Source of the DNA: Candidatus Omnitrophota bacterium
GTDB taxonomy: Bacteria > Omnitrophota > Gorgyraeia > 2-02-FULL-51-18
Direction of reading: 5' to 3'
DNA: 33,857 bases
NCBI GenBank assembly: GCA_016180585.1
Contig: JACPAX010000039.1
Coordinates: 1 to 33,857, forward strand
The position numbers and the translations under genes were made by a program. Within the stretch, counting starts at the first letter, position 1; every line of letters begins with the position of its first letter. The notes beneath the pieces were generated by a model. The model saw only the letters and a program-made list of their open reading frames with translations. It had not been told where the DNA came from and searched no databases. Positions 24,972 to 33,857 of the stretch are shown in pieces.

Positions 24972-24980
24972 TGGCAAATC

Positions 24981-25008
24981 CGAAATTCGAAATTCGAAAT
25001 CCGAAACA
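24981..25008. repeat. Heptamer repeat just upstream of trpA
   Basis: Tandem 7-mers CGAAATT, CGAAATT, CGAAATC and CGAAACA lie 9 bp beyond the trpA ATG, followed by AATCCGAATGATCAAAATTC. I associate this string with repeats scattered through candidate-phylum genomes. The 7-bp period equals that of the unrelated-looking array at 32835-33046. Confidence 0.7.
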
Positions 25009-25063
25009 AATCCGAATGATCAAAATTCAAATAACTATAGCCAACGCGATAAATCCCGTGACA

Positions 25064-25151
25064 TGTCATTGCGAGCGACCGAAGGGAGCGCGGCAATCTT
25101 TGCGTCGCATAGATTGCTTCGTCGTCGCTGTCGCTCCTCCTCGCAATGACA
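25064..25151. repeat. Palindromic intergenic element in the trpB-trpA spacer
   Basis: An 88-bp element with perfect 12-bp inverted ends, TGTCATTGCGAG (25064-25075) and CTCGCAATGACA (25140-25151). Inside is a 7-bp stem, GCAATCT (25093-25099) and AGATTGC (25111-25117), with an 11-nt loop. It resembles the widespread 'attgcgag...gcaatct' class of miniature intergenic repeats (from memory). No coding capacity is apparent. Its outer end shares GCAATGACA with the birA-coaX spacer at 1017-1025. Confidence 0.85.
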
Positions 25152-25196
25152 GTTTACTTAATGCGTTTGTATTAAAACGAACCCTTTGGATTTCGG

Positions 25197-26468
25197 TCAT
25201 TTAAATTTGGAGCCTTGTTTCGCCTGCCTGCCGGCGAGGCAGGGATTTCGTGCTTCGGATTTCGTGCCTGTCATTTTGGAAATCTGCTCCACGTCCTTGT
25301 CGCCGCGACCCGACAGGCACACCACGAGACTGTCGCTTTTTTTGAAAAGCGACCGGTGTTTCAAAAGATATCCGATCGCGTGCGCGGGCTCCAGCGCCGG
25401 AATGATCCCTTCGTTTTCACTGAGCGCTTTGACGCCCAGAAGCGCTTCTTTGTCCGTCGCCGCCACATAACTCACCCGCCCGGTTTTTTTCAAATACGCG
25501 TGCTCGGGGCCGACCCCCGGATAATCCAGCCCCGCGGAGATCGAATGCGCCAGCCGGATCTGTCCGTCGCCGTCCTGCAGGACCTCGCTTTTTGAGCCGT
25601 GGAGCACCCCGGTTTTCCCGAGCGACAAGGTCGCCGCGTGCCGCGCCGTATGAAGCCCCTCGCCCGCCGCCTCGACGCCGATCATGCGGGATTTGGACCC
25701 CAGATACGGATAAAAAAGCCCGATGCTGTTGGAGCCGCCGCCGACGCAGGCCACCAGATAGTCGGGATCGCTTAAGCCGGCCCGTTTCATCTGCGCGGCC
25801 GTCTCTTTTCCGATCACGGACTGGAAATCCCTGACCATCGCCGGATACGGGTGCGGCCCGATCACGGAGCCGATGATGTAATGGGTGTTTTCCACATGGG
25901 TGACCCAGTCCCGGATCGCCTCGTTCACGGCGTCTTTCAGGGTCCGGGACCCGGCCTTCACGGGAATCACGCGCGCGCCCAAGAGCCTCATCCGAAACAC
26001 ATTGAGCGCCTGGCGCTCGATGTCTTCCTGTCCCATGTAGACGTCGCATTCCAGACCAAACAAGGCGCATACCGTCGCGGTCGCCACCCCGTGTTGGCCC
26101 GCGCCGGTCTCGGCGATGATTCTTTGCTTCCCCATCCGCATCGCCAGAAGGGCCTGGCCCAGCGTGTTGTTGATCTTGTGGGCGCCGGTGTGGAGCAAGT
26201 CCTCGCGTTTGAGAAGCAGGCGGCGCACCCCCAAAAGTTTCGCGAGACGCCTGGCGTCCGTAAGCGGTGTGGGGCGTCCCGCGAAGTTTCGCAGATAGCC
26301 GTCGAGTGTTTTCCTGAAATTTTTGTCCCGCCTGGCGGCGCGGGCGGCCTTCTCGAGTTCCTCGAGCGCCGCCATCAGCGTCTCGGGGACATACCGGCCG
26401 CCATAAGGCCCGAAATACCCCCTGGAGTCGGGCAGCCGCGACCAGGCTTTTTTATTTTTGTTTGGCAT
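25197..26468 (-). CDS. trpB: Tryptophan synthase beta chain with a repeat-derived tail
   Basis: PLP enzyme joining indole and serine to make tryptophan. The 423 residues show [15 protein letters not shown] near the start, the PLP lysine K98 in HTGAHKINN, and the phosphate loop GGGSNSIG, as in TrpB1. The family sequence ends around [16 protein letters not shown]. The last 22 residues (402-423, [17 protein letters not shown]...) are encoded by repeat DNA that includes the palindrome at 25223-25243. The ATG at 26466-26468 overlaps trpF by 17 bp. The tail is unlikely to disturb the active site but might affect the alpha-beta contact. Confidence 0.96.
25223..25267. repeat. Palindrome plus direct repeat inside the trpB 3' end
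   Basis: A 7-bp inverted repeat, CCTGCCT (25223-25229) and AGGCAGG (25237-25243), surrounds GCCGGCG. It is followed by two direct copies of GGATTTCGTGC at 25243-25253 and 25257-25267. All of it is read as the TrpB C-terminal tail. Confidence 0.75.
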
Positions 26469-31350: not shown

Positions 31351-32111
31351 CACCGGACCAACACTCCTTTCCGCCTGAGATATCGTTTCGCCTGGCCGAC
31401 CGTGTATTCTTTAAAATGAAAAATGCTCGCCGCCAGCGCCGCGTCCGCCCGTCCGCGGGTCAGCCCCTCGGCCAAATGCCTGAGATTTCCGACGCCGCCC
31501 GAGGCGATCACGGGGATCCGGACGGCCTCCGATACGGCCCGCGTAAGCTCCAAGTCATAGCCCTCTTTCGTGCCGTCCCGGTCCATGCTCGTCAGCAGGA
31601 TTTCCCCGGCGCCGAGGGCCTCGACGGTCTTCGCCCACGACAGGACCTCGCGCCCGCTGTTGCGCCGGCCGCCGTGCGTGTAGACCCGCCACCTCCCCGG
31701 TTTCTTCCCGGACCATTTGGCGTCTATCGCAACCACGATGCACTGCGCGCCGAAACGCGCGGAGGCCCTCTTGACGAGCCCCGGGTCCTTCACCGCGGCC
31801 GTGTTGATGGACACCTTGTCCGCGCCGGCCTTCAAAAGCTCGCGGACGTCCTCCAGGTTCCTCACGCCTCCGCCCACCGTAAGCGGCATGAAAACCTGCT
31901 CCGCGGTCTTCCGCACGACCTCGAGGAGAACGCCCCGTTTTTCGTGGGAAGCTGTGATGTCGAGAAAAACAAGCTCATCCGCGCCGGATCGGTCATAATA
32001 CTTGGCGCACTCGACGGGGTCCCCCGCGTCCCGCAATCCGAGAAAGCGGGTGCCCTTCACGACGCGCCCTTCCTTCACATCTAAACAGGGAATTATTCTT
32101 TTTGCAAGCAT
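31350..32111 (-). CDS. hisF: Imidazole glycerol phosphate synthase, cyclase subunit
   Basis: Uses ammonia from HisH to form imidazole-glycerol phosphate and AICAR. The 253-residue barrel has the two catalytic aspartates at the canonical D11 ([13 protein letters not shown]) and D130 (VVAIDAKW), plus [21 protein letters not shown] and ASGGVGN. The ATG lies 19 bp inside the hisA 3' end, so the genes are tightly coupled. Its partner hisH is two genes upstream, separated by a repeat array. Confidence 0.97.
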
Positions 32112-32824
32112 GTTTTGACCGCGTCCGCCAAATTCAACTTCTTTTCGTACAAGGCCTTGCCGATAATGACGCCCAAGAGGTTCGCCTGTTTGAGCGCGAC
32201 GAGATCCCGCACGTCTCCGATGGAGCCGACGCCGCCCGAGGCGATCACGTCGATCGCCACCGCTTCGGCCAGCGCCTTGACTGCCTTAAGATTGGGACCG
32301 CCCAGGAGACCGTCTTTTGAAATATCGGTATAAATGACGGTCCGGCCGCCGAGGGCCTCCGTTTTTTTGGCAAGCTCCGCCGCCGGGATCTTCGTCACCT
32401 TCGTCCACCCGTCGGTCGCGACCCGCCCGCCGAGCGCGTCGATCCCGACGATGATTTTTTCCCGGTATTCCGAAACGGCCTCTTTGAGAAATCCCCCGTC
32501 CAGGCAGGCCCTGGTCCCCAGAATGACCCAGCGCGCACCCCTCTCGAAATAGTCCGCCGCCGTCTTCAAGTCGCGGATGCCCCCGCCGACCTCAACCGGA
32601 ATTTTTATCTTTCCGAGCAGGGCCTCCACCGCGCCGAGGTTCCTGGGCTTGCCGCCGAGCGCGCCGTCCAAGTCCACCACGTGGATCCGGGAAGCGCCCT
32701 CCGCCTCAAAGCGGGCCGCGACCCGCTCCGGCCTCTCCGGGTAAACCGTCTCCTCCCTGAAGTCGCCGCGCGAGAGCCGCACGACCTTCCCACCTCTCAA
32801 ATCAATCGCGGGAATAGGAATCAT
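32093..32824 (-). CDS. hisA: Phosphoribosylformimino-5-aminoimidazole carboxamide ribotide isomerase
   Basis: Amadori isomerase that makes the HisF substrate. The 243-residue barrel starts [22 protein letters not shown] (catalytic D8) and has [37 protein letters not shown] and ASGGVGS. The frame runs 43 codons further upstream, but those codons are the heptamer array, so the start is set at the ATG 32822-32824. No Shine-Dalgarno is apparent. The frameworks of HisA and dual-function PriA are similar; the separate trpF here argues for HisA. Confidence 0.96.
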
Positions 32825-32834
32825 AACCAAACCC

Positions 32835-33046
32835 GAAGCACGAAGCATGAAACATGAAACATGAAGAATGAGACATGAGGCATGAGGCATGAGGCATGAG
32901 GCATGAGGCATGAGGCATGAGGCATGAGGCATGAGGCATGAAGCATGAGACATGAAGCATGAGGCATGATAAAAGAGTTGGGTTTTTATGTTTCATGCTT
33001 CGTGCTTCATGTTTCGTGCTTCCTGTTTCATTCTTCGTGCTTCATG
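32835..33046. repeat. Inverted heptamer minisatellite between hisH and hisA
   Basis: The left arm (32835-32967) is 19 uninterrupted 7-bp units of the form GARRCAT, nine of which (32877-32939) are identical GAGGCAT. After a 20-bp spacer, the right arm (32988-33046) has eight complementary units of the form RTGYTTC plus three bases. The arms could pair into a long hairpin. The right arm overlaps the end of hisH and the left arm stops 10 bp before the hisA ATG. The open frame through it encodes a repetitive SCLMPHA peptide, which I do not regard as a gene. Confidence 0.93.
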
Positions 33047-33633
33047 CAAATAAAATTTCTAATGATTTTCAATCCCACGGTCTGGCTCTTTTCCGGGTGA
33101 AACTGCGTGGCAAAGATGTTTCCCCGCTGCAGCGCCGAGCAGAAATTCACGCCGTAGCGCGTCGTCGCCAAAATGTCCCTCCGGTCCTCCGGGACCGCGT
33201 AGTAGGAGTGGACGAAATAAAAAAAACTCCCTTTTTTAAGCCCCTTGGTCAGCGGGCTGTCTTTTTTCAAATCCAGCGTGTTCCATCCCATGTGGGGCAC
33301 CTTGAGCCTCCCCTTGAAACGCACCGCGCGCCCGCCGAGCACCCCAAGGCCCCTGGTCTTCCCGCCTTCTTCGCTCCGCTCAAATAAGATCTGAAGCCCC
33401 AGACACAGGCCCAGATAAGGCGTGCCGGCCGCGATTTTTTCCTTAAGCGCGCCGATGAGCTTTCTCTTGCCGAGCTCTCTCATCGCATGAGAAAAAGAGC
33501 CGACGCCCGGCACGACAATTTTGGCGGCCCGCTCAATCTCGGCGGCGGAGTCCGTGACCTGCGCCCCTGCCCCCGCCGCCTCAAACGCCTTCTGCACGCT
33601 GCGCAAGTTCCCCATCCCGTAGTCGACGATCAC
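33028..33633 (-). CDS. hisH: Imidazole glycerol phosphate synthase, glutamine amidotransferase subunit
   Basis: Glutaminase partner of HisF. The 201 residues show IVDYGMGNLRSV at the start, PGVGSF at 42-47, the catalytic cysteine C77 in GLCLGLQ, and the His-Glu pair of FHPEKS (179-183). No ATG lies near the family start; the GTG at 33631-33633 fits best, and a GTG ten codons upstream (33663) is the alternative. The last residues CMKHEE come from the heptamer repeat, and the stop codon lies inside its right arm. It is the first gene of the window in transcription order; upstream his genes probably lie beyond the edge. Confidence 0.94.
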   Translation of the reverse strand: MIVDYGMGNLRSVQKAFEAAGAGAQVTDSAAEIERAAKIVVPGVGSFSHAMRELGKRKLIGALKEKIAAGTPYLGLCLGLQILFERSEEGGKTRGLGVLGGRAVRFKGRLKVPHMGWNTLDLKKDSPLTKGLKKGSFFYFVHSYYAVPEDRRDILATTRYGVNFCSALQRGNIFATQFHPEKSQTVGLKIIRNFICMKHEE

Positions 33634-33857
33634 AATGCCTTGTAGGATTGCCTCTGACCTCACCAATGCCCCGCCCCCTTCCCCTTTGCTTTCAGACCGC
33701 GCGCTTCCCAGTAAATGCCCGCGCAACCCGGCAAGCTTTATCCTCGCCCGGACGCATGATTTTCGCTCCGACCCGCGAACGGGGCCTGCCGCCTGCGGGA
33801 CTCCGCGGTGCTCGTGTAATTCTTCACTCCGCGCCGCGGAGGCCTCCCCTCCGGCGT
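33634..33857. other. Non-coding region upstream of hisH, reaching the window edge
   Basis: I find no convincing gene in these 224 bases. There is a small palindrome, CTCCGCG-C-CGCGGAG, at 33827-33841, and a CCGCGGTGCTCG string near 33813-33824 that resembles CCGTGGTGCTCG near 951-962 in the birA-coaX spacer. The region therefore looks like more dispersed-repeat sequence. A promoter for the his-to-plsY run could lie here or further upstream, but I cannot point to one. Confidence 0.5.

Follow-up and report, generated by a model that had tools for sequence, protein, structure and literature searches.

A heptamer inverted repeat in the his operon of an Omnitrophota bacterium as a probable gene-less derivative of mobile IVP elements

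The IVS of Coxiella burnetii 23S rRNA is an ∼430-bp element with an S23p/IVP open reading frame and terminal inverted repeats that form a stem. Tandem heptamers of the sequence GACAGAT precede the reading frame, their number varies between strains, and the stem of rRNA IVSs is cut by RNase III (PMC4990558). Heptamer repeats have also been described in Xanthomonas, where GGGAATC forms 70 to 75 inverted pairs, and in Nostoc, where the heptamer is GGGGAYT; that study reported no general association with mobile elements and offered slippage as a hypothesis for their abundance (PMC4692102). The IVP family itself (23S_rRNA_IVP, PF05635) is structurally homologous to Avd of diversity-generating retroelements (PMC10053308).

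The inverted arrays between hisH and hisA

The window analyzed here, a 33,857-nucleotide stretch of DNA from a Candidatus Omnitrophota bacterium (contig JACPAX010000039.1), contains two inverted heptamer arrays, as an earlier note on the sequence had described. The longer arm (32835-32967, plus strand) is made of 19 GARRCAT units, with GAAGCAC as unit 1, a single GAAGAAT, and a run of nine consecutive GAGGCAT units, which agrees with the recent unit expansion suggested in that note. The complementary arm (32988-33046, minus strand) has eight units reading GARRCAT on that strand (32988-33043) and terminal bases that are partly degenerate. The two arms are separated by a 20-bp center (32968-32987) that together with its edge bases forms the core ATGATAAAAGAGTTGGGTTTTT (32966-32988, plus strand; translation MIKELGF). 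TRF scores for the window arrays were 144 to 180 and 64 to 78. The entire element, to which we assign no strand, spans approximately 32835-33046.

The minus-strand RNA, which is the sense strand of the his operon, is predicted to fold at −75.6 kcal/mol compared to −51.4 ± 4.4 kcal/mol for 200 shuffled sequences (z = −5.45), all of which were less stable than the real sequence. The long imperfect hairpin that the note had envisaged in the his transcript is therefore borne out as a potential structure. Rfam gave no match to the element at the gathering score, only sub-threshold plant microRNA models, and we attribute this likeness to chance hairpin resemblance. We also rejected an assembly artefact, given that intact genes flank the arrays and that similar arrays are present in isolate genomes (Geobacter, Anabaena, and Flavobacterium).

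Both neighboring genes were assigned with Pfam and lie on the minus strand. hisH (33028-33636, start approximate) ends inside the element, with the C-terminus ...RNFICMKHEE*, where the last residues CMKHEE are element derived and the TGA stop is supplied by a heptamer. hisA occupies 32093-32824, and its frame remains open upstream across the element, through the 19-unit arm, with ATG codons up to 32953. The third gene, after hisH and hisA, encodes a second His_biosynth protein by Pfam and is hisF by position. The array thus lies within the his operon and before hisA, as proposed, but not solely between genes, since the hisH stop codon sits within it.

In a genome of the same genus (G001), the stop codon of hisH and the start codon of hisA overlap (ATGA) in the sequence CTCAAATGATT. 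None of the 14 hisA copies recovered from relatives, that one and 13 further copies, has a GARRCAT array at hisH-hisA. The window array is therefore an insertion; the element gives HisH its stop codon and parts a formerly overlapping gene pair. In genome G017 (locus L129), inverted heptamers of AACCGGC type are inserted in frame within the HisH coding sequence.

Dispersed copies and a gene-carrying sister

We searched the whole genome, an 81%-complete draft of 1.57 Mb in 94 contigs, and found 161 + 127 matches to a three-unit pattern allowing up to two mismatches, compared to 1 + 0 for the reversed pattern. A BLAST-type search with unit parsing resolved these into 16 elements, comprising 14 two-armed gene-less copies, one gene-less copy truncated by a contig end, and one copy that carries a gene; contig C61 has an additional weak one-armed trace. 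The arm order is invariant, 5'-(GARRCAT)n-core-(ATGYYTC)m-3', the inter-arm distance is exactly 20 bp in 9 of the 14 two-armed gene-less copies, and the core consensus GATAAAAGAACTGTCTTTTC is recognizable, in either orientation, in all copies but one. Arm lengths range from 4 to 28 units and do not correlate between the left and right arms (rho = −0.04), which indicates that no exact hairpin is being preserved. Across 396 units, positions 1, 2, 5, and 6 are conserved at 92 to 99.5% while positions 3, 4, and 7 are variable, a pattern that looks more like conservation of the unit than of a perfect hairpin. Some of the other copies also show higher-order repeats, a sign of slippage.

The genome-wide search for the heptamer called for in the earlier note yielded 16 dispersed copies rather than a site specific to hisH-hisA. 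Their sites include ilvC-leuA, BatA-BatB, rmlA-rmlB, panD-nadX, and other unrelated operon junctions, and where open reading frames allowed both neighbors to be assessed, these are codirectional. These neighbors were named by sequence appearance, with a profile search for hisH-hisA only.

The his operon most likely just tolerates the element as a passenger. Reading inward, TGA occurs in every frame of a GARRCAT arm within 21 nucleotides, while reading outward it does not occur at all, a property of the unit itself. This may make insertions inside operons tolerable and is peculiar to the GARRCAT heptamer. Array-encoded or array-adjacent tails comparable to that of HisH (KHEA, KHET, and KKET) are present in rmlA (L075), rlmN (L079), panD (L072), and a PAPS-reductase-like gene (L077). 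At two other loci, a GARRCAT arm continues in frame into the beginning of a protein, a predicted lipoprotein with a lipobox-like FLSGC in one case (L078, 4403-4604) and a prepilin-like protein (KGFTFIEVLIA) in the other (L074, 4404-4986), so that an array may be the source of a gene's start codon and leader residues.

On contig C53, the gene-carrying copy has ∼380 bp between its arms, and an intact PF05635 gene lies there on the minus strand. Its product is a four helix bundle protein (TIGR02436, NCBIfam), with solved homologues in PDB entries 2gsc and 2rld (five chains each), the former being the pentameric protein XCC0516, homologous to IVP. All five PF05635 genes in this genome lie between the inverted arms of five different short repeats, and a full IVP element, ∼460 bp long, consists of one small four-helix-bundle gene and flanking inverted arrays of an element-specific 7-bp unit. 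Identity at IVP codon positions 1, 2, and 3 is 0.72, 0.83, and 0.49, respectively, which points to purifying selection. To our knowledge, IVP has no recognized nuclease or polymerase motif.

The gene-less core translates as MIKEL-SF, comparable to the IVP protein starts MIKHF, MIKSY, and MIKNY. Two other repeat types, AGTTCGG and AATCCGA, also have gene-less copies, and these retain the terminal sequences of their IVP copies. Given the start-like core and the shared ends, the gene-less copies appear to have arisen by internal deletion. The GARRCAT family shows two features expected of a MITE, multiple dispersed gene-less inverted-repeat copies and ends common to a gene-carrying partner, here the C53 copy. 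Compared to an IVS/IVP element, the window copy has the complementary ends that can form a stem but has no PF05635/TIGR02436 reading frame, which its C53 sister does have, and it sits in the his operon and not in 23S rRNA. We have therefore classified it as a derivative of IVS-like IVP elements outside rRNA and not as a full member. The window holds a further inverted heptamer element, of AATCCGA type, at 24976-25264, with ∼240 bp between its arms; it encloses a second inverted repeat, TGTCATTGCGAG...CTCGCAATGACA, which is apparently nested.

IVP genes and heptamer arrays across phyla

We next compared 172 PF05635 loci, of which 94 came from the class and 78 were usable loci from named genomes of Bacteroidota, Cyanobacteria, Planctomycetota, Omnitrophota, Patescibacteria, Methanophagales archaea, and others. 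The named genomes were scanned with a tighter IVP alignment, the five-protein alignment being too divergent for a scan of the collection. Inverted flanking repeats scoring over 23 were present at 77% of the 172 loci compared to 6% of 388 displaced windows; about one quarter of IVP loci have no clear inverted repeat. In the named-genome set, a control of mismatched pairs had a 99th percentile of 38.7, with 23 of 78 loci above it, but this control is inflated because some heptamers are common to several loci, and displaced windows were used instead.

The arms mostly have a 7-bp period, which is the strongest lag at 110 of 132 IVP loci and at only 2 of 24 controls. In the strongest named-genome arms, identity at lags of 7, 14, and 21 is 0.68, 0.66, and 0.58, respectively, while most other lags are at ∼0.25. 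Where the best lag was neither 7 nor 8, it mostly resembled noise or short arms; a lag of 8 appears to be real in two IVP clusters. None of the 78 named-genome loci matched 23S rRNA. In three cyanobacterial genomes that we reached by way of their IVP loci, the arm heptamer AGGGAAY had 202 to 538 matches and the control had none. The association of IVP genes with heptamer arrays is thus well supported.

The heptamer also follows the protein. Across the 110 heptamer loci, IVP identity correlates with heptamer similarity (Mantel rho = 0.26, reached in 0 of 999 permutations), and a heptamer is shared by 42% of pairs with 60 to 65% protein identity compared to 3% of pairs with 30 to 40%. Common descent must account for some of this sharing. 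Third codon positions are 44% identical in IVP pairs with 60 to 65% protein identity, and in this comparison the heptamer seems to outlast neutral sites, which would give indirect support for its recognition by IVP. The octamer-unit elements L157, L158, L246, and L254 have mutually nearest IVPs, and two further elements with an 8-bp arm unit, L264 and L266, have an IVP group of their own; unit length therefore appears to be a trait of the IVP subfamily.

Mobility, rival explanations and known systems

The three-unit GARRCAT pattern was not found in the same-genus genome and, among 11 genomes of the family, gave one match with one mismatch. At BatA-BatB, where this genome has GARRCAT, three other genera have GAAGCAA, AATCCGA, and GACGAAG inverted elements and others have none, and at ilvC-leuA, which has GARRCAT here, one relative has a TAGCGTA-type element. 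The same operon junctions have thus been hit repeatedly by different families. From the empty sites in relatives, we infer that GARRCAT elements are mobile. The reversed control pattern (TACRRAG repeats) had matches of its own in G017 (3 + 7), G034 (0 + 2), and G037 (2 + 0), which suggests other heptamer families in those genomes.

We consider it likely that the window repeat derives from a mobile IVP element, is non-autonomous in the manner of a MITE, and jumps into operon junctions; its heptamer is probably recognized by the IVP pentamer. An ordinary microsatellite, arisen by local slippage and inverted duplication without any mobile element, could account for the nine identical GAGGCAT units and the higher-order repeats of other copies, in line with the slippage proposed for heptamer abundance (PMC4692102). 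We regard it as highly improbable, since it leaves unexplained a conserved core at unlinked sites, one heptamer common to 16 sites in an invariant arm order, the PF05635 gene of the sister copy, the association of heptamers with IVP across phyla, and the empty sites. A regulatory hairpin or attenuator selected for hisH-hisA coupling would fit the stable predicted fold and the position between the two genes. The earlier note had suggested such a tuning device, but that idea is disfavored by the element being at many unrelated junctions, by the uncorrelated arm lengths, by its absence from hisH-hisA of the relatives sampled, and by the lack of an Rfam match at the gathering score, and it now seems very improbable.

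Two other explanations keep the element mobile and change what moves it. Another enzyme, for example, a Y1 (REP-associated type) transposase, could act in trans with IVP as a passenger or cargo. REPIN-RAYT systems offer a precedent, with inverted pairs mobilized in trans, and the genome has six PF01797 matches, but heptamer arms flank none of the five loci examined, whereas they do accompany IVP genes across phyla and track the IVP phylogeny. We therefore see this as unlikely, though the least so of the rivals. A reverse-transcriptase-dependent retroelement is suggested by the weak match of IVP to the model for Avd of diversity-generating retroelements and by the structural homology of the two families (PMC10053308). 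It is improbable given that no RVT_1 match was found in this 81%-complete genome.

For the preferred IVP-element derivative, the sequence of events could be as follows. The gene of the window copy would have been lost, leaving the arms and a core beginning like the gene start. The IVP pentamer would bind the heptamer array at either the DNA or the RNA level, conceivably with each subunit contacting a single unit. IVP would also be needed to move full copies, and gene-less copies in trans, into operon junctions, after which slippage would lengthen and shorten the arms. Mobile IVP elements with gene-less derivatives are the best-supported part, and IVP itself as the driver of movement is less certain. 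By analogy with rRNA, cutting of the stem by RNase III is plausible at the window element. We also put forward, tentatively and as a possibility we would not yet call probable, a widespread new class of prokaryotic mobile element in which an IVP pentamer recognizes an element-specific tandem heptamer and moves the element with neither a reverse transcriptase nor a conventional transposase; the arms and gene-less derivatives would then explain a large share of bacterial heptamer repeats.

The pairing would give a job to PF05635, a family known mainly from crystal structures and its rRNA location, and it predicts that each IVP prefers its own heptamer. Over-representation of heptamers in bacterial genomes has so far been ascribed to slippage; the pairing is a concrete alternative that may account for the abundance of such repeats. 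In the open-access literature searched, no paper connected IVP with the heptamer repeats of bacteria.

IVP belongs to a four-helix-bundle family homologous to Avd, but unlike in Avd systems, a reverse transcriptase was not found in this genome. As with MITEs and REPIN-RAYT systems, gene-less inverted-repeat copies are dispersed and the gene-carrying copy is rarer, whereas the arms here are tandem 7-bp repeats of variable length and the gene linked to them codes for a four-helix-bundle protein and not a transposase. The Xanthomonas and Nostoc heptamers likewise form intergenic arrays, often in inverted pairs, whose length varies between relatives; the link to IVP is made here and is absent from that study (PMC4692102), and XCC0516, the solved IVP homologue, comes from the same Xanthomonas species as the GGGAATC heptamers. 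The direct precedent is the Coxiella IVS, which has an IVP gene, inverted ends, and tandem heptamers in common with the elements described here. In contrast to that IVS, the present elements lie outside rRNA and in many copies, their gene-less derivatives occupy operon junctions, and their arms are composed mostly of tandem heptamers.
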